A DNA stretch of 64,000 nucleotides from Wenzhouxiangella sp. XN201 (lineage in GTDB: Bacteria; Pseudomonadota; Gammaproteobacteria; Xanthomonadales; Wenzhouxiangellaceae). The notes under the pieces were generated by a model. The model did not search any database. It was not told the origin of the DNA and worked only from the letters and a program-made list of their open reading frames with translations. Each line of letters begins with the position of its first letter. Position 1 is the stretch's first letter. Below, one piece after another: positions 4,496 to 13,393 of the stretch. The stretch is taken from the NCBI RefSeq assembly GCF_011008905.1, contig NZ_JAAIVI010000019.1, positions 62,001-126,000 on the forward strand, read 5' to 3'. Both the position numbers and the translations under genes were made by a program.

Positions 4496-4516
4496 ACGGA
4501 ACCCTTTCGGGCCGAG

Positions 4517-5887
4517 CTACCGAATCCGGTGCCACTCGGTCTGGCGGCCGGCCAGATAGATCACGCGCTCGCCGTCGAACACGGCCGTCTGCTCGAGCTT
4601 GATGTTGACGAGCTGGTCGTCCCATTCCGGCACGGCTGTCTTGATGCTGCCCTCGATGGCGTAGACGGTATTGGCGTGCAGCGGCCAGTCGCCGGTGTCT
4701 GCGACCTCGGCGGGCAGGTCCCACATGCCGATGGTCGGCCCCGGACCGTGGCCGACGTAACCGATCGGGTGGGTATAGATGTTGAACGACCAGGGAGCGT
4801 CGGCCATGGCTTCCTGGGCGGTCGCGAGAATCTCGTTGCCGCTGCGCCCGGTGACGAACTCGTCGGTCAGGCCGTCCTGCCAGCGGTTGCCCGCCGCCAG
4901 CGCGTCGACCAGGCCTTCGGGCACCTCGGCCTCGCCGGGTTTCAGGACGTAACCCATTTCCTGGGTGTCGGTACACAGCTTCAGGTAGCAGATGCCAACG
5001 TCGGTATGCAGCACATCGCCGGGCTGAATGGTCCCGGACGTGCCGCAGAACGGCGTGTCTTCCGCGCACTCGCCACCCGGACGCTGGATATTGACGTAGG
5101 GCATGAACCAGGGATCGAGCCCCAGCTCTTCGAAGCGCTGGCGGATGAACCAGGCGACATCATCGGTATGCGTCACGCCGGGCGTGATCACGCGACCCGA
5201 AAAGGCTTCGGCAATCACGCCACGGGCAATCGAGACCACGTGCGGGTAGACGGCCAGCTCGCGCTCGCTGCGCGTTTCGAGCCAGCGCACCACCAGTTCC
5301 TCGGCCGGCACCAGGCGGTCTTCGAGTTCATCCGGTAAAGCGGCGATCAGCTTGCGATGCAGGCCGTGGGTCAGGCCGTCGGCTTCCGGCCAGGTGTCGG
5401 ATACGTTGATGCCGATGCGCTCCGGGTCGCGCTCTGCAACCAGCTCGCCCAGGGCCTGCCACTGTTCGTCCAGCGAACCCCCTTCCCAGGCCGATTCGTA
5501 GGGTTCGCCCAGCGGATAGCGATTGACGGTCAGGCGATCGAGCCCGCCGTCTTCGTTCCGATGAAAGACCAGCATGGTGGTGCGCCGGGCGGCAAAGCTC
5601 GGCTGCGGTACCAGGGTGAAGTAGACCGGATCCTCGGCATATTCGCGGTTGAGTACCAGCCACATGTCGATACCGGCCTCGTCCATCAGGCGCGGCAGCA
5701 GGTTTTCGAGCCGGTCGGTCAGCATGGCATTTTCCGGCTCGATGCGATCGCGCGAACTGAGCACGGCGCGCTCGGCGGATTCGATCACGCGGCCCTGCTC
5801 GGCCGCGGGCAAGCCGGTGGCGAATAGCGATAGCGCGAGCCCCGCGGTCGGCACGAGCGCCGACAGCAGCGTTGATTTACCTGTCAT
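4517..5887 (-). CDS. Secreted M24-family metallopeptidase (Xaa-Pro aminopeptidase-like)
   Basis: 456 residues. ATG at 5887 is preceded by a strong AAGAGGAGAG site and opens a signal peptide (LLSALVPTAGLALSLFATG, then PAAEQ), so the protein is exported. The C-terminal half has the pita-bread metal ligands in order: HTDVG, CTDTQEMGY, a histidine in THPIGYVGHGPGP, YAIEG and KLEQT. Two cysteines near ECAEDTPFC could form a disulfide in the periplasm. The N-terminal domain is of the creatinase type. M24 members cleave X-Pro bonds using two metal ions; the exact specificity is not deducible. It is separated by 35 bases from chaB upstream on the same strand. Confidence 0.87.
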   Translation of the reverse strand: MTGKSTLLSALVPTAGLALSLFATGLPAAEQGRVIESAERAVLSSRDRIEPENAMLTDRLENLLPRLMDEAGIDMWLVLNREYAEDPVYFTLVPQPSFAARRTTMLVFHRNEDGGLDRLTVNRYPLGEPYESAWEGGSLDEQWQALGELVAERDPERIGINVSDTWPEADGLTHGLHRKLIAALPDELEDRLVPAEELVVRWLETRSERELAVYPHVVSIARGVIAEAFSGRVITPGVTHTDDVAWFIRQRFEELGLDPWFMPYVNIQRPGGECAEDTPFCGTSGTIQPGDVLHTDVGICYLKLCTDTQEMGYVLKPGEAEVPEGLVDALAAGNRWQDGLTDEFVTGRSGNEILATAQEAMADAPWSFNIYTHPIGYVGHGPGPTIGMWDLPAEVADTGDWPLHANTVYAIEGSIKTAVPEWDDQLVNIKLEQTAVFDGERVIYLAGRQTEWHRIR

Positions 5888-5922
5888 CGTCTCTCCTCTT
5901 GCGGTTCGGGCGTCAGGCCTTC

Positions 5923-6138
5923 TCAGTCGTTCTTCCGGACCCAATTACCGTCATCGTTCTTTTCGTACGACTCCTTGACCGCCGACCAGGCCACGCGGTG
6001 GGCGATACCCTCGCGATCGGACTTGCCGGCATACTGTTTCCAGGCCGAGTTGAACGCTTTGCGATAAATCGTCTGAGCACCCTGCGGAAGATTGTCGGTC
6101 ACCGAATCGGGCAGGTCGTCGTTGCGTGCGTACGGCAT
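5923..6138 (-). CDS. chaB: ChaB family protein
   Basis: 71 residues matching E. coli ChaB closely: N-terminal MPYARNDDLPDSV, middle IYRKAFNSAWKQY, then HRVAWSAVKESY. ChaB was named as a regulator of the ChaA cation antiporter, but its biochemical role is not well established. No chaA lies next to it. It follows the coiled-coil gene by 3 bases, so the two are probably co-transcribed, and it precedes the M24 peptidase by 35 bases. Confidence 0.9.
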   Translation of the reverse strand: MPYARNDDLPDSVTDNLPQGAQTIYRKAFNSAWKQYAGKSDREGIAHRVAWSAVKESYEKNDDGNWVRKND

Positions 6139-7365: not shown

Positions 7366-8865
7366 ATGCCGGTCTTCTGGTTCCGGCGGACTGAACGCCC
7401 CGCACCGGCCGATTCGGCCGCGCTGCCGCGCGAAACCGGGCAACAAACACAGCTGGGCCAGACGCTCGCCGAGCAGCTCAGCGAGCATCCCGGCGAGAGC
7501 GGCCTCCACCCACTTAACGACCCGCTCGACGCCTTCGCCGCGCGTTACCTGTTGGCACACGCCGCCGAACGCACGCTCGATGTGCAGTACTACATCTGGG
7601 GCAATGACCTGACCGGTGCGCTGATGCTGAGTGCCCTGCTCGAGGCGGCCAACCGTGGCGTTCGCGTGCGGCTTTTGCTCGACGACAACGGCATCCAGGG
7701 CCTGGACGACAGGCTGGCGGCCCTGGACAGCCACGAAAACATCGAGGTGCGGCTGTTCAATCCCTTCGCCCTGCGCTGGCCGCGTTGGGTCAACTACCTG
7801 ACCGATTTCCGTCGCATCAATCGGCGCATGCACAACAAGTCCTTCACTGCCGACAGCCAGGCTACCGTTGTCGGTGGGCGTAACATCGCCGACGAGTACT
7901 TTGCCGCCGGCACTGGTTTGCTGTTTGCCGATCTGGACGTGATCGCCGTCGGCCGGGTGATCGAGGACGTCGCGGCCGATTTCGACCGCTACTGGAACAG
8001 CGAGTCGGCCTGGCCGATCGAGAATCTGATCGAGCCCACGGAAAACGACCCGATCGGCTACCTGCGCCTGGAAGCCCGCCAGTTCGAACAGGACGAGCGG
8101 ACAATCGCCTACCTCGACAAGTTCGAGCACTCGGCTTTCATCGAAGCTTTTCTCGACGGCCGGCTGGAAATGTTCTGGGGGCGAGCGGAACTGGTTAGCG
8201 ACGACCCTCACAAGATCCTGGACAAGCCCGGCTCGAAGGGTCCGCTCAGCGAGCAGCTGCGGGAAGCCGTCGGTCTTCCGACCGATCGGATCTACGTGGT
8301 CTCGCCGTACTTCGTACCGACACGCTCTGGCGCGAAACTATTCACGGAGCTGGCCGAAAGCGGGGTGGAAGTGGTCGTGCTGACCAATTCCCTGGAAGCC
8401 ACCGACGTCGCCGCCGTGCATTCGGGCTACAGCCGCTATCGCAAACGCTTGCTCAAGGCCGGCGTGAAGCTCTACGAGATGCAGCGTCTCTCGGGACAGG
8501 AGCGGATGCGGGGCAAGGGGCCGCTGGGGAGCTCGGGATCGAGCCTGCACGCCAAGACCTTCGCTGTAGACGGCAAACGCGTGTTCGTCGGATCGTTCAA
8601 CTTCGACCCCCGCTCGGCACAACTCAATACCGAGATGGGCCTGTTGATCGACAGCCCGGAACTGGCCGGGCAATTGGCCGAGACCTTTGCCGGGGAAGTC
8701 CCGCAGTACGCCTACTCGGTGCACCTCGACGGCCACGGCGGGCTGTACTGGATCGAGCGAACCGAGTCGGGCAAGGTCCGCCACGAGCACGAGCCGCACA
8801 CCAGCGCGTGGAAGCGCATGGGCGTGGCCATCCTGGCACGACTACCGATCGTCTGGCTGCTCTAG
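7366..8865 (+). CDS. Phospholipase D-family cardiolipin synthase (ClsC-like)
   Basis: 499 residues with two HKD motifs: MHNKSFTAD with His156 and LHAKTFAVD with His395, each followed by the GG/GS-N element (VGGRNIADEYF; VGSFNFDPRS). Such enzymes join phospholipids by phosphatidyl transfer to form cardiolipin. The N-terminus lacks a strong membrane anchor or clear signal, as in E. coli ClsC; the C-terminus ends in a short hydrophobic tail. TGGAGG lies 5 bases before the ATG. It is convergent with, and overlaps by 4 bases, the borosin methyltransferase gene, so no separate terminator exists between them. Confidence 0.88.
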   Translation: MPVFWFRRTERPAPADSAALPRETGQQTQLGQTLAEQLSEHPGESGLHPLNDPLDAFAARYLLAHAAERTLDVQYYIWGNDLTGALMLSALLEAANRGVRVRLLLDDNGIQGLDDRLAALDSHENIEVRLFNPFALRWPRWVNYLTDFRRINRRMHNKSFTADSQATVVGGRNIADEYFAAGTGLLFADLDVIAVGRVIEDVAADFDRYWNSESAWPIENLIEPTENDPIGYLRLEARQFEQDERTIAYLDKFEHSAFIEAFLDGRLEMFWGRAELVSDDPHKILDKPGSKGPLSEQLREAVGLPTDRIYVVSPYFVPTRSGAKLFTELAESGVEVVVLTNSLEATDVAAVHSGYSRYRKRLLKAGVKLYEMQRLSGQERMRGKGPLGSSGSSLHAKTFAVDGKRVFVGSFNFDPRSAQLNTEMGLLIDSPELAGQLAETFAGEVPQYAYSVHLDGHGGLYWIERTESGKVRHEHEPHTSAWKRMGVAILARLPIVWLL

Positions 8866-9695
8866 TTGCCCCGCCGATACTGCTGATAGGCGCCCAGGAC
8901 CAGATCGGAAGCTCGCACACCAAGCCGTTCGAGCCGTTCGGCGCTCAACTCGGGCGCGCCCGCCGGCGGCAGGTACAGGGTCGATGCCTGGGTGAAGCGC
9001 GCCTCGTGCAGCCGATTGAGTGGCACGGGCTCAATGCGGGCTTCGTCAAGGGGAAAGACCGCGGCCTCGTAAATCGTGACTGGATGCTCGGCCGGGTAGG
9101 TCTCGCCCAGAACTTCGGCCAGAACGCGGACCCACTCCGGATCGTGTTCGAAGGCCTTGCGACCGAGATCGCCGAGGGTGATCGGCTGCCACAGGATCAA
9201 TGCCGCGGTCGGGTCGAAGCGGCGCGCGTGGAGCAGGAAATCGGTGGCCTCGAAACTCTGGCAGCCGTGGACGGCCGGGTCGAGCCCGAGGTCGGCGAAC
9301 AGGCAGTCCTCGGCCGAGATGCCGGGATACATCACGGCACGGTAGCCGGCCGCGCGCGCCTGGCGCACGGCTTCGTGGGCCGGCCAGACGAAGACGCCGG
9401 GATGGCCGTAGAAGGCGGCGCAGACATGCCGGCCTTCCTCGAGCGGAGCGAGGATTCGCCGCACCATCTCGGCATAACTGTCGTCGCGCTGCCGTCCGAC
9501 GGCGTAGCTGTCCTGCAGCGATTCGATGCCGGCATTGATTTCTCGCAGGCGCTCGAGGGTCAGCCCGTCGACCACCGTGAAGACGCGGTCGGCGGCAGCG
9601 ATGACATGCTGCGTTTCACGGGTGAGATGGCCGCCCGGGCGAATGCCGGTACCGACGACGCTCAGGCGGCCGATGCTTGTGGCGTTTTCCGACAT
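8862..9695 (-). CDS. Borosin-type peptide backbone alpha-N-methyltransferase (split)
   Basis: 277 residues of the tetrapyrrole methylase fold. Core motifs match the methyltransferase domain of the fungal borosin OphMA: VVGTGI (13-18), FYGHPGVFV (95-103), PGISAEDCLFADLGLDP (124-140) and GCQSFEATDFL (144-154). By my alignment Tyr64, Arg70 and Tyr74 fall on OphMA Tyr66, Arg72 and Tyr76, residues implicated in catalysis. Unlike OphMA, the enzyme stops after the fold and carries no substrate peptide. The substrate is encoded 18 bases upstream by the 67-aa gene. It is predicted to use S-adenosylmethionine to methylate backbone amides of that peptide. Its ribosome binding site may be masked by a hairpin. 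Confidence 0.9.
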   Translation of the reverse strand: MSENATSIGRLSVVGTGIRPGGHLTRETQHVIAAADRVFTVVDGLTLERLREINAGIESLQDSYAVGRQRDDSYAEMVRRILAPLEEGRHVCAAFYGHPGVFVWPAHEAVRQARAAGYRAVMYPGISAEDCLFADLGLDPAVHGCQSFEATDFLLHARRFDPTAALILWQPITLGDLGRKAFEHDPEWVRVLAEVLGETYPAEHPVTIYEAAVFPLDEARIEPVPLNRLHEARFTQASTLYLPPAGAPELSAERLERLGVRASDLVLGAYQQYRRGN

Positions 9696-9707
9696 CAGCC
9701 GCCTGAG
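9661..9707 (-). promoter_or_regulatory. Inverted repeat able to mask the methyltransferase ribosome binding site
   Basis: CTCAGGCGGC occurs just upstream of the methyltransferase ATG on the minus strand (9698-9707). Its exact complement lies in codons 9-12 (9661-9670). The 10-bp stem would close a 27-base loop containing the start codon and would bury the AGGCGG site, lowering methyltransferase translation relative to the precursor. Confidence 0.5.
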
Positions 9708-9713
9708 CCCGTT

Positions 9714-9917
9714 TCACACGATCAGTAATTGCACGGCAGCGTCGTCCACGCCGGCTTCACGACGCAGGGCATCCTTGTCGCCGGAAAGAAAGTGCTTCTG
9801 GTGCTCTTCCGGTACACCATATTCGTCCATGACGGCTTTCGGATCTTGCTTGAAACGTTCGAGCGTTTCCGGATCCTCACCCAGAACGGCGACGAATTTG
9901 CGGGTTTTCTCGGACAT
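9714..9917 (-). CDS. Split borosin precursor peptide
   Basis: 67 residues. Residues 6-55 form a helical leader (FVAVLGEDPETLERFKQDP, then AVMDEYGVPEEHQKHFLSGD) with the pattern of the substrate-side domain of OphMA (LALDPKALADYKADHRAF and RAALELGD there) and of LigA-like borosin binding domains. The tail after residue 57 is VDDAAVQLLIV; its hydrophobic C-terminal VQLLIV is the likely methylated core (inference, by analogy with valine/isoleucine/leucine-rich borosin cores). A strong AAAGGAG lies 5 bases before ATG, clearly better than that of the methyltransferase. It follows the amine oxidase by 51 bases in the same operon. No recognisable protease or exporter is adjacent. Confidence 0.88.
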   Translation of the reverse strand: MSEKTRKFVAVLGEDPETLERFKQDPKAVMDEYGVPEEHQKHFLSGDKDALRREAGVDDAAVQLLIV

Positions 9918-9968: not shown

Positions 9969-11477
9969 TCAGGAATTGAGCCAGTCGGGCGCCGATAAAT
10001 GGAAGCATCGTTGCAGCATGTCTTCGGTGGTCTGCAGCGCACCCTCGACCCAACCCTGGGCCGTGCTGTAGGTCTCGCCGCAAAGATGGACGGGCAGTCC
10101 GGTGATCGGGGCACACATCGATTCGGTCACTTCCCAGCTCTTCCAGCCGGGCAGCCAGTTGTGCCAGCCGCCGCCGTAAGGCCAGTGCGTCCAGTCGATG
10201 AAGCGCCCGGCCGTGGGCTGGGGCACATCGACGCCATGCATTTCGCTCAGCTCGCGTCGGATTTCGGTGAGTGCGACCGGGCTGAGATCACTCGCCAACT
10301 CGGCACCGCGCCCGCTGTCGGGCGTCAGCGCACGCCAGAAACTGACCGCATCGGTGTCGGGATAGCTGGCCAGCATCAAGGCCTGGCCCGAACCCTTGTC
10401 CACGCCCAGGTAGTAGCACTGGCGCATGGGCAGGTCGGTATGCGACACGCCATAGGAACCGCGCCCGATGCGGCCCGGGCCGTCGGGCACGTCCCGCCAC
10501 CATGGCTTGTCGAAAGTCAGGAAGATCTTGCAGTTGGGTACGCTGTCGACCGAGTCCATGGTTGTGGTCAGACCACCCTGACGCAAATCGGGACTGGCAT
10601 CGACGAGCGCACTCAGCGCGAGCTTCGGCACGGCCAGAACCAGGCGGTCGGTGCCGACCGCGCTCGTGCCCTCCTTCGAATCGACCATCAGGCGCAGCCC
10701 CTTGCCGTCGCGTTCGACACGCTCGACGACATGACCTTTGAGCACCGCCACGCCGGCTTGCTCGAGCACTTCCGCCAGCCGCTCGGGCAGGTGCTGGTAG
10801 CCGTGCGTGAGCCGAAACCACTGACCGCTTTGTTCGACCACGACGGCGACCATGGCGTCGAAGCCGTTCCAGTTCGACAGCAGCGCATTGGAGCTGATCA
10901 TGCCGCGCAGTGCGAGCCAGGCCTCGTTGCTGATCACGCGCGAGAGCAGGTTCCAGAAGCCCCAGCGCCACAGCGGCCGGCCGTCGAACTCGTGCTGCTT
11001 GAGGTAGTCGAGTGTCTGCTCACGGCTACCGTCGGGATCGTTCGGCCACAACTTCTTGATGTCGGGAGCGATCCGGGTGCAGGCCAGATCGAGCAACTGG
11101 TAATAGCTCAGCCCCTGCTCATCCGGCGCCAGGTTGTAGGGCTGCTTCTTCGGGTCGGCGAACTCGGCGATCCGGAAGCGCGTTGCGCGCAGCCAGGCAA
11201 AGTCGGGCTCGGGTGCGACTGGCTCCTTCGGCAGGTCAAGCGCCCGGCTGCACAGCCCATAGACCAGCGGCTGCCGGTCGTTGAAGAACATGCCGCCGAG
11301 TTCGGCCGGAAGGGTGCTGTCGGGCTGCATGCGCAGGGACCACAGCCGGCCGCCGATGCGATCAGTGGCCTCCAGCACGGTCAGACTGGCAGAATCGTGC
11401 CCGGCTTCGAGCAGGCGCCAGGCGGCATACAGGCCGGATACACCGGCGCCAATAATCGTGATCTTTGCTTGTTTCAT
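9969..11477 (-). CDS. FAD-dependent amine oxidase, in the borosin operon
   Basis: 502 residues of the flavin monoamine oxidase family. The N-terminus has the ADP-binding motif ITIIGAGVSGLYAAW, an acidic end of the second strand in VLEATDRIGGRLWS, and the C-terminal FAD-contact segment HLCGETYSTAQGWVEGAL. No signal peptide is present, so it is cytoplasmic. The start was set at the ATG overlapping the TGA of the upstream cyclase (ATGA); the longer frame only reads through that gene. These enzymes oxidise amines or amino acids to imines with release of peroxide. Its place directly upstream of the precursor suggests either peptide tailoring or an independent amine substrate; the sequence does not decide. 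Confidence 0.87.
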   Translation of the reverse strand: MKQAKITIIGAGVSGLYAAWRLLEAGHDSASLTVLEATDRIGGRLWSLRMQPDSTLPAELGGMFFNDRQPLVYGLCSRALDLPKEPVAPEPDFAWLRATRFRIAEFADPKKQPYNLAPDEQGLSYYQLLDLACTRIAPDIKKLWPNDPDGSREQTLDYLKQHEFDGRPLWRWGFWNLLSRVISNEAWLALRGMISSNALLSNWNGFDAMVAVVVEQSGQWFRLTHGYQHLPERLAEVLEQAGVAVLKGHVVERVERDGKGLRLMVDSKEGTSAVGTDRLVLAVPKLALSALVDASPDLRQGGLTTTMDSVDSVPNCKIFLTFDKPWWRDVPDGPGRIGRGSYGVSHTDLPMRQCYYLGVDKGSGQALMLASYPDTDAVSFWRALTPDSGRGAELASDLSPVALTEIRRELSEMHGVDVPQPTAGRFIDWTHWPYGGGWHNWLPGWKSWEVTESMCAPITGLPVHLCGETYSTAQGWVEGALQTTEDMLQRCFHLSAPDWLNS

Positions 11478-13285
11478 GCTTCCTCGTGTCTCGCCGGGGC
11501 GCGTGAGGGCCCGTGCCGGAAGGGTGTGGCCTTGTCGGGATCGAACAGCACGGCCCGGTTGCGACCGGCCTGCTTGGCCTGGTAGAGCGCCTGGTCGGCC
11601 ATGCGCAGAATGTCGCTGACCGTACACGTCGGCGAGATACTCGACACTACGCCAATGCTGGTGGTCACGGGCATCTCCGCGCCTTCGAACAGGAACGGCC
11701 GTTCGGCGACTTCGTCGATGATCCTACCGGCTACCTGCTGGCCGGTCCGATCATTCTGATCGGAAAGAACGATCACGAACTCGTCGCCGCCAAGCCGGCA
11801 AATCACATCGCCCTCGCGCAGCACGCGCTGACAGCGCCGCACCAGTTCGCGCAGCACCATATCGCCGGCAGCGTGGCCGTACTCGTCGTTGGTTTCCTTG
11901 AAATTGTCGAGGTCGAGGATCAGCACGGCCCGGTCAAAGGAGTCGGCCGAAGCGCCCGGCATGACGTTGTCGAGGTAGGTCTGCAGAAAGCGCCGGTTGT
12001 AGGCGTCGGTCAACGGGTCCAGGTTGGCCAGGCGGGCGGCCTTGTGCTGCTCCTCGATGGCCCGGGCGTGGCGCTCGTAGAGCTGACGTACGCGCCAGGT
12101 CAACCCAAGTGCCAGAATGCTGGCTTCGACCACCGAGCCGAAGTAGATCAGGTATTCGAACAGGCTGGTGCGCGGCACCAGGTCGAGCGACATGAACACC
12201 CGCGCGAATCCGCTGATGATGAATACCAGCCAGGCAGCCAGGAAAATGTAGCCCTCGGTGGCACCCCGGCGGCCAGCCAGGTAGGCGCCGGCAATCAGCA
12301 GGATCTGGAACAGAAGCTGGACCGGCTGCAGGGCGGTGAGGATCAGCGGCAGTCGCTGATCGGGCAGGATCAGCGCGGCGGTGGCCATAAGGGCTATCAC
12401 GCCGATCAGGATGCGGATGGTCCGGCTCAGGCGCGGCGCGTGACGCTGCGGATGCACGAATGCCAGGAAGAAAAGCCCGATGGTCACCAATGCCAGCATG
12501 TTGATCACGGCGTACAGCTTTGCGACGTACGCCAGAAGAAAGTCGGGGAGTACGTAGTTCTGCAAGAGCCCGGAATCCATACCCAGCAACAGCAGGACGC
12601 TGGCCATCGCCAGCACATAGAACAGGTGACCGCGCTGGCGAAGATTCAGATACAGGATGAAGTTGTGGAAGATCAGGGCGATCAACATGCCGAACACGAG
12701 CCCGAAGACAAGGAAGTGGTTGGTCTTCGATTCGGCGAAAGTCGATCGGCTCTCTATCCACAACTCCACCGGCTGGAGACTGTCCTGAACGGTATCGACA
12801 CGGATCAGCAGGGTCTGGACTTCTCCGGACGGCACCGTGAAGTCCGAAACGAACTGCCGGCCGACCGTATCCATCGTGATTGTTTCATCGTAGGCCGCGC
12901 GAAATTCCCGCAACTGGCCGTCCTCATCCGGGACGTAGACTTCAAACGCCTGGAAGAAACGCCGCGCGACGCGCAGCACATACTGACCATCGGATGCAGG
13001 CGGGGCGGCCACCTGGAGTTTCAGCCACAGCGGGGGCGCGTTGCGCTCCAGCTCCGGGGAGTAACGTTCAAAGCCTGCATCGCTGCGAAGCAGGGATTCC
13101 GGATTCAGCGCACCCTCCGGGTCCGGGCGCACGGCCGCGGCCTGCTTGATGTCGCCGATGGTGCCTTCGTCAGGGAGCTGAATGACGTCTGCGCGGTGCT
13201 GTGCCAGGAGGGGGGCGGAAGCCGCAAGCAAGAGCAGGGCGCACGCCAGGCGTGCCAACCAATGGCGCCCCGTGCGGTCGCTCAC
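11474..13285 (-). CDS. 7TMR-DISM diguanylate cyclase, first gene of the borosin operon
   Basis: 603 residues from a GTG that opens a signal peptide (WLARLACALLLLAASAPLLAQ). Then come a periplasmic 7TMR-DISMED2-type beta domain (about 30-190), a seven-helix 7TMR-DISM membrane domain (about 195-400), a short coiled linker (RHARAIEEQHKAARLA) and a GGDEF domain with RLGGDEF near residue 500. REGD upstream matches the RxxD inhibitory site, so it should make c-di-GMP under feedback control. DISM domains are thought to bind small carbohydrate-like or other periplasmic ligands. A TTG at 13378 would give a longer protein but places 31 residues before the signal peptide. It overlaps the amine oxidase start by ATGA. 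Confidence 0.88.
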   Translation of the reverse strand: MSDRTGRHWLARLACALLLLAASAPLLAQHRADVIQLPDEGTIGDIKQAAAVRPDPEGALNPESLLRSDAGFERYSPELERNAPPLWLKLQVAAPPASDGQYVLRVARRFFQAFEVYVPDEDGQLREFRAAYDETITMDTVGRQFVSDFTVPSGEVQTLLIRVDTVQDSLQPVELWIESRSTFAESKTNHFLVFGLVFGMLIALIFHNFILYLNLRQRGHLFYVLAMASVLLLLGMDSGLLQNYVLPDFLLAYVAKLYAVINMLALVTIGLFFLAFVHPQRHAPRLSRTIRILIGVIALMATAALILPDQRLPLILTALQPVQLLFQILLIAGAYLAGRRGATEGYIFLAAWLVFIISGFARVFMSLDLVPRTSLFEYLIYFGSVVEASILALGLTWRVRQLYERHARAIEEQHKAARLANLDPLTDAYNRRFLQTYLDNVMPGASADSFDRAVLILDLDNFKETNDEYGHAAGDMVLRELVRRCQRVLREGDVICRLGGDEFVIVLSDQNDRTGQQVAGRIIDEVAERPFLFEGAEMPVTTSIGVVSSISPTCTVSDILRMADQALYQAKQAGRNRAVLFDPDKATPFRHGPSRAPARHEEA

Positions 13286-13377
13286 GCGCGAAGCCCTGTG
13301 AAATTGCGGCGGACGCCGTAGATCATCTGCTGACAGTTCCCTCGACCCTTCGACCCAAAGAGTAAACGTGCAGGGCA

Positions 13378-13393
13378 ATCAAGTCCACTTGAT
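13378..13393. promoter_or_regulatory. 16-bp palindrome upstream of the borosin operon
   Basis: ATCAAGT-CC-ACTTGAT, a perfect 7-bp inverted repeat between the fetB-like stop and the cyclase start, about 93 bases before the chosen GTG. It is a possible operator for the cyclase/borosin operon; no flanking promoter boxes were convincing. Confidence 0.35.

Follow-up and report, generated by a model that had tools for sequence, protein, structure and literature searches.

Split borosins are a known class (PMC8429565). In the type IV pair SonM/SonA of Shewanella oneidensis (PDB 7ltc), the methyltransferase and a short precursor are separate proteins; the accessible text of the same paper gives Tyr58, Arg67 and Tyr71 as active-site residues of SonM and L63 and I65 as the methylated residues of SonA. 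Fungal borosins of the OphMA kind instead carry enzyme and core as one fused protein. As of 2021, according to that text, no type IV borosin pathway had yet been tied to a final natural product.

We propose that a locus in Wenzhouxiangella sp. XN201 is probably a four-gene minus-strand operon that makes a backbone N-methylated peptide. It lies in a stretch of 64,000 nucleotides, referred to here as the window, and like SonM/SonA it encodes a separate methyltransferase and a short precursor (Table 1). An earlier note on this DNA had picked out both reading frames without giving a strand; both are present and on the minus strand, the precursor gene upstream of the methyltransferase gene with 18 bases between them. 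That note had stopped at the pair and overlooked an oxidase homologue and a 7TMR-DISM diguanylate cyclase encoded upstream on the same strand. The gene order on the minus strand is diguanylate cyclase, oxidase homologue, precursor and methyltransferase; the cyclase stop overlaps the oxidase start codon (ATGA), and the true start of the cyclase may lie downstream of 13378. At the other end, the methyltransferase gene and a convergent PLD-family gene (7366-8865) overlap by 4 bases (8862-8865) where the two genes end.

TABLE 1 Features of the borosin locus, in window coordinates
Feature	Position	Strand	Basis
Split-borosin backbone alpha-N-methyltransferase (SonM family), 277 aa	8862..9695	-	Homology
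Precursor peptide, 67 aa: SonA-like helical borosin-binding domain (approximately residues 7-57) and C-terminal core ending VQLLIV	9714..9917	-	Homology, conservation, pS/pN
Candidate core, precursor residues 58-67	9714..9746	-	SonA alignment and PMC8429565 (accessible text); presumed ungapped extension
FAD enzyme, L-amino-acid-oxidase homologue, 502 aa; GGMF for GGMR, Lys317 kept	9969..11477	-	
7TMR-DISMED2 / 7TMR-DISM / GGDEF diguanylate cyclase, GGDEF motif intact	11474..13378	-	Domain search

The methyltransferase and its precursor peptide

Among solved structures, the methyltransferase matches SonM (1e-52) and, through its homologous domain, OphMA (5e-43), and every one of the 25 solved sequences that reach 1e-3 or better belongs to SonM or to a fungal borosin enzyme. 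It contains the motifs FYGHPGVFV and PGISAEDCLFADLGLDP, which the earlier note had described as shared with OphMA. The Tyr64/Arg70/Tyr74 set proposed there as catalytic aligns on SonM Tyr58/Arg67/Tyr71 and is invariant in 18/18 alignment rows, window and SonM included.

The fold carries the Pfam name TP_methylase (3.1e-18), and the best NCBIfam model is YabN; both would suit a tetrapyrrole-type methylase unconnected with peptides, next to an incidental short reading frame. We regard this as exceedingly improbable given the SonM and OphMA matches, the Tyr/Arg/Tyr set and a peptide that is itself conserved and matches SonA. All NCBIfam models that came up fall far short of their cut-offs: YabN reaches 45.6 bits where 525 is required, and two cobalamin models reach 12.2 and 20.5 bits where 163 and 391 are required. 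A cobalamin-type best match without borosin relatives, the outcome that the earlier note had named as contrary, is the reverse of what the 25 borosin matches and these low model scores indicate. A PHROGs search returned nothing for methyltransferase or precursor.

The precursor matches SonA over residues 7-57 (8.4e-6), so that the comparison with the Shewanella pair suggested in the earlier note yields a match for both proteins. A LigA name for the precursor (6e-4, under the cut-off) was taken as the SonA-type domain instead, because SonA bears the LigA name in the PDB, and a match to 9mvr (0.0045) was set aside as weak. In the window and eight relatives the precursor spans 67-68 codons from the homologous start (the mechanical reading frames of L003 and L005 start further upstream), and against two relatives pS is 0.74-0.76 and pN 0.23-0.25 (uncorrected), a roughly threefold difference. 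Because its length is nearly constant and pS exceeds pN, we consider the precursor gene real. Judged by sequence, the enzyme and the 67-residue peptide are a split borosin pair of the SonM/SonA type, as first suggested.

The division of the peptide into a leader and a hydrophobic C-terminal candidate core also holds: the SonA-like domain is followed by the tail VQLLIV, and the tails of the nine precursors read VQLLIV, LQFIII, LQFVIL, MQLIIL, CRLIIF (two), MNFIVL (two) and MNFIIF. Window residues 8-57 align on SonA (7ltc_B) 7-56, and SonA residues 63-64 are L-V, consistent with the published L63. No program aligned the tail itself; an ungapped continuation of the alignment would put L64 and I66 of the window on SonA L63 and I65. 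By analogy with SonM, the precursor would dock through its helical domain on the methyltransferase dimer and be N-methylated with SAM on its C-terminal tail, most likely at L64 and I66. That the pair methylates some residue of the tail appears highly probable from this analogy; that the residues are L64 and I66 is an even call.

Conservation and distribution of the four-gene locus

Relatives of the methyltransferase (1e-10 or better) occur in 144/299 genomes of the order. A wider contig search confirmed 559 relatives, and the best 80 were kept as named loci; these best 80 include Gammaproteobacteria, Alphaproteobacteria, Cyanobacteria, Chloroflexota, Myxococcota, Acidobacteriota and two Thermoplasmata archaea. 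The split borosin pair is of a known, widespread kind and is not rare. The earlier note had taken this core sequence and its operon to be uncommon and borosins with a separate substrate to be known from a few bacteria. The split form is indeed a known class; "uncommon" suits only the operon with the oxidase, which, among the matches listed, occurs in Wenzhouxiangellaceae, while three alphaproteobacterial loci carry the oxidase in other arrangements.

Several of the named loci depart from a simple pair. L069, L070, L075 and L083 each contain two adjacent borosin methyltransferase matches, which in L069 form one reading frame of 541 aa. Two precursor-like reading frames with hydrophobic, valine-rich C termini are found in each of L110 (7377-7883, Rhizobium) and L077 (7434-7946, Rhodoblastus).

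The diguanylate cyclase, FAD enzyme, precursor and methyltransferase genes occur together in the same order in the window and in 8/8 related loci (L032-L039, 7.8-19.5 kb). By contrast, 0/8 other window genes are present in L035-L039, five of the eight four-gene loci (L035 being a 7.9-kb contig only). We count this retention of four genes while the flanks change as evidence of an operon and against chance neighbours. Across 43 genomes of the family, the oxidase is present in 10, an oxidase-type methyltransferase (identity 49% or more) in 10 and both in 9 (Fisher p 1.7e-7, relatedness ignored); in the two discordant genomes, G119 and G209, the gene lies at a contig end.

These observations bear on a simpler account, in which precursor and methyltransferase alone make the product and the oxidase and cyclase are neighbours sharing a promoter. 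SonM and SonA alone do yield two methylations (PMC8429565, accessible text), and the oxidase is found in only 6/80 named loci (best 80 of 559), so it is no general borosin partner. We nevertheless think this account unlikely, since the four genes stay joined where the flanks change and oxidase and methyltransferase co-occur; an oxidase-precursor fusion and the absence of the substrate Arg from 13/13 oxidases, both described below, argue against it as well.

A quick tree of 87 enzymes requires two changes of the oxidase label. The oxidase-linked enzymes fall into a Wenzhouxiangellaceae group of 8 (97) and a group of three from Alphaproteobacteria (94), and both groups lie on the side of the tree that holds the gammaproteobacterial GGDEF branch. 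L113, a long-branched sequence from an Acidimicrobiaceae MAG, joins the Wenzhouxiangellaceae enzymes (91); its 7 kb contain no oxidase, and a precursor-sized reading frame of 86 aa precedes the methyltransferase. The oxidase link may have had a single origin.

The oxidase homologue and its link to the precursor

The best solved match of the oxidase homologue is 8jhe (1e-70), followed by arginine and lysine oxidases, and its predicted structure (pLDDT 81.5) recovers the same L-amino-acid-oxidase (LAAO) relatives by fold (Foldseek 1.1e-42). The protein has a predicted LAAO fold and FAD motifs. In Calloselasma LAAO, Arg90 and Tyr372 hold the substrate carboxylate, according to the accessible parts of PMC6149928 and PMC7052187. 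A GGMR motif is present in 8jhe, 8jt7/8t8a, 7eih/7eii and the unlinked LAAO of L136. We take Arg90 of the Calloselasma enzyme to be the Arg of this motif.

At this position the 13 oxidases of the borosin-linked group (window, nine family loci, L047, L056 and L065; the family locus L130 is cut before its borosin genes) have F in 12 and H in 1, and Arg in 0/13. The L065 motif reads GGAS-F, and the others follow GGM. With 8jhe, aligners open a gap of one residue at the Arg, so equivalence there is judged by the motif; the alignments with 8t8a and L136 have no gap. Lys317 is invariant in a 13-row alignment (11 of the borosin-linked group, L136 and 8jhe), and the L136 Lys in this column aligns with the residue mutated in 7eii (titled K387A). 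Among 398 genomes of the phylum, the one other oxidase relative at 1e-40 is L136, from G641; because it keeps the Arg and has no methyltransferase or precursor within 17.5 kb, we used it as a control. With the carboxylate-binding Arg replaced and the active-site Lys kept, the oxidase homologue looks active, yet not built for free amino acids. On the strength of GGMF in place of GGMR, we describe it as LAAO-like and do not class it as an L-amino-acid oxidase.

Three alphaproteobacterial loci among the best 80 of 559 relatives, L047, L056 and L065, also have the oxidase near the methyltransferase. In L056, an alphaproteobacterial MAG, a single reading frame of 600 aa comprises the oxidase and a C-terminal SonA-like stretch. 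With this fusion as query, the alignment to the window runs past the oxidase stop codon and on into the precursor, which is in the same frame; at 1e-40, 398 genomes of the phylum yield only the Wenzhouxiangella genome itself and one unlinked LAAO. The SonA-like stretch has a weak LigA match (0.017, under the cut-off) that is independent of our own model; the stronger score from that model is circular, since the model was built from a seed of L056, L047, L065, L040 and window-type precursors. The predicted structure of the fusion (pLDDT 66, last 22 residues below 50) is too poor for docking or tail placement. The fusion is one MAG sequence and may be an assembly error or frameshift; as a sequence, it is suggestive of oxidase action on the peptide.

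In L047 the precursor overlaps the oxidase end in another frame. In L065 a TIR-domain protein (4498-5946) is encoded upstream, followed by oxidase, precursor and methyltransferase in that order. The methyltransferase of L047 and that of L056 are each preceded by a class III cyclase-AAA/STAND-TPR protein. An anti-phage role was considered and rejected: no PADLOC model matched the window methyltransferase, precursor or cyclase. The oxidase matches one desaturase-like PADLOC model (2.3e-12), and partners in the alphaproteobacterial loci match TPR, AAA and TIR models.

The LAAO grouping by sequence and by fold, together with the retained Lys, would also suit an ordinary amino-acid oxidase whose H2O2 or keto acid is sensed by the cyclase, the borosin being a separate output. 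We judge this quite improbable: the carboxylate-binding Arg (PMC6149928 and PMC7052187, accessible parts) is absent from every one of the 13 enzymes, and the precursor fusion would lack an explanation. We favor instead a flavoenzyme of LAAO fold, without the carboxylate Arg, that would oxidize the precursor or its cleaved product. Conserved linkage, the L056 fusion and the missing Arg point to such a second, oxidative step, for and against which we see the balance as equal. LAAO chemistry takes amines as substrates, not amides, so the peptide would need a free amino group, perhaps after cleavage; none of the four operon genes encodes a protease.

GGDEF partners and comparison with known systems

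The protein encoded upstream of the oxidase matches PF00990 (1.7e-43), with an intact GGDEF at residue 530; by domain and motif it is probably a diguanylate cyclase, and c-di-GMP synthesis is predicted. Among the best 80 of 559 relatives, a same-strand GGDEF gene accompanies the methyltransferase in 33/36 gammaproteobacterial loci and 0/44 others (start to start, nearest copy at most 3.3 kb, extra copies up to 5.3 kb). The 33 loci are related, 11/33 being Chromatiaceae, mostly Rheinheimera. The Wenzhouxiangella genome has 49 GGDEF matches, and the chance of a same-strand one within 3.5 kb is approximately 0.05; given the relatedness of the loci, multiplying this chance across them says little. 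As to the three exceptions, the contig of L104 ends where the GGDEF gene would come; no GGDEF gene was found in L067, a MAG with an enzyme that clusters with cyanobacterial ones; and in L119 a TPR hybrid histidine kinase comes straight after the precursor. This Alteromonadaceae kinase (L119, 7983-13094; two receivers, Hpt) stands where related loci have GGDEF.

A precursor-like reading frame lies directly upstream of 34/43 GGDEF genes in 35 loci (L043 and L066, on the same contig, counted once), with scores up to E 0.2 accepted and models seeded with some of these loci. In Marinicella (L085, 5754-13748), three pairs of precursor-like reading frame and GGDEF gene surround one methyltransferase, and the model found 2/3. 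The Wenzhouxiangella genome has a second borosin methyltransferase (G000:C20), 40% identical to the first; its locus, L040 (61000-80500), holds, in one row, a 70-aa precursor, the methyltransferase and three GGDEF genes, of which two encode clear TPR repeats.

The link between GGDEF and borosins is partly known already, since a figure legend of PMC11395268 includes GGDEF as a domain in a scheme of borosin types. The main text of PMC8429565, as accessible, contains neither "GGDEF" nor "diguanylate", and the open-access literature searched yielded no paper with "borosin" and "diguanylate" together. In the window, the 7TMR diguanylate cyclase would tie the mature peptide to c-di-GMP signaling, the peptide being either a ligand or a regulated product; we put this forward tentatively, at somewhat less than an even chance, and cyclase and peptide could merely be co-regulated.

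Precursors are paired with a range of putative sensors: 7TMR or TPR diguanylate cyclases, a TPR hybrid histidine kinase and class III cyclase-STAND-TPR proteins. One broader reading, which we offer as speculative and rather doubtful, is that proteobacterial split borosins are ligands or effectors of dedicated signaling proteins and not stand-alone antibiotics, and that an LAAO-derived flavoenzyme gives the N-methylated peptide a second, oxidative modification in the window's branch. To our knowledge, such LAAO-derived modification of an N-methylated peptide has no precedent in a RiPP pathway. Within the open-access papers searched, none combined an L-amino acid oxidase with a RiPP precursor peptide, and the only one to mention both borosins and an amine oxidase is a graspetide paper.

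The paralogue in the same genome and the gammaproteobacterial precursor-GGDEF loci likewise have methyltransferase, precursor and GGDEF on one strand, but no oxidase was found in them and their gene order differs; of nine of their cyclases, six have TPR ahead of GGDEF (some of it weak) and three have an unnamed region there, whereas that of the window is 7TMR. The oxidase shares fold, FAD motifs and active-site Lys with bacterial LAAOs (HTAncLAAO2 8jhe, arginine oxidase 8jt7/8t8a, lysine oxidase 7eih), but its group has the GGMR Arg replaced and is linked, once fused, to a peptide precursor. A search for the sonM/sonA locus at 1e-80 among 369 genomes gave no match; L063 and L066, which group with SonM in the tree (89), both have a GGDEF gene. 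With SonM/SonA the window shares the Tyr/Arg/Tyr set, the helical binding domain and the tail spacing, while its tail stops at the hydrophobic stretch, and its operon also holds an LAAO-like oxidase and a 7TMR diguanylate cyclase. The conserved flavoenzyme beside the pair, in one locus fused to a precursor, could perform a second tailoring step, and that precursors are paired with second-messenger enzymes suggests a possible signaling role for these peptides.
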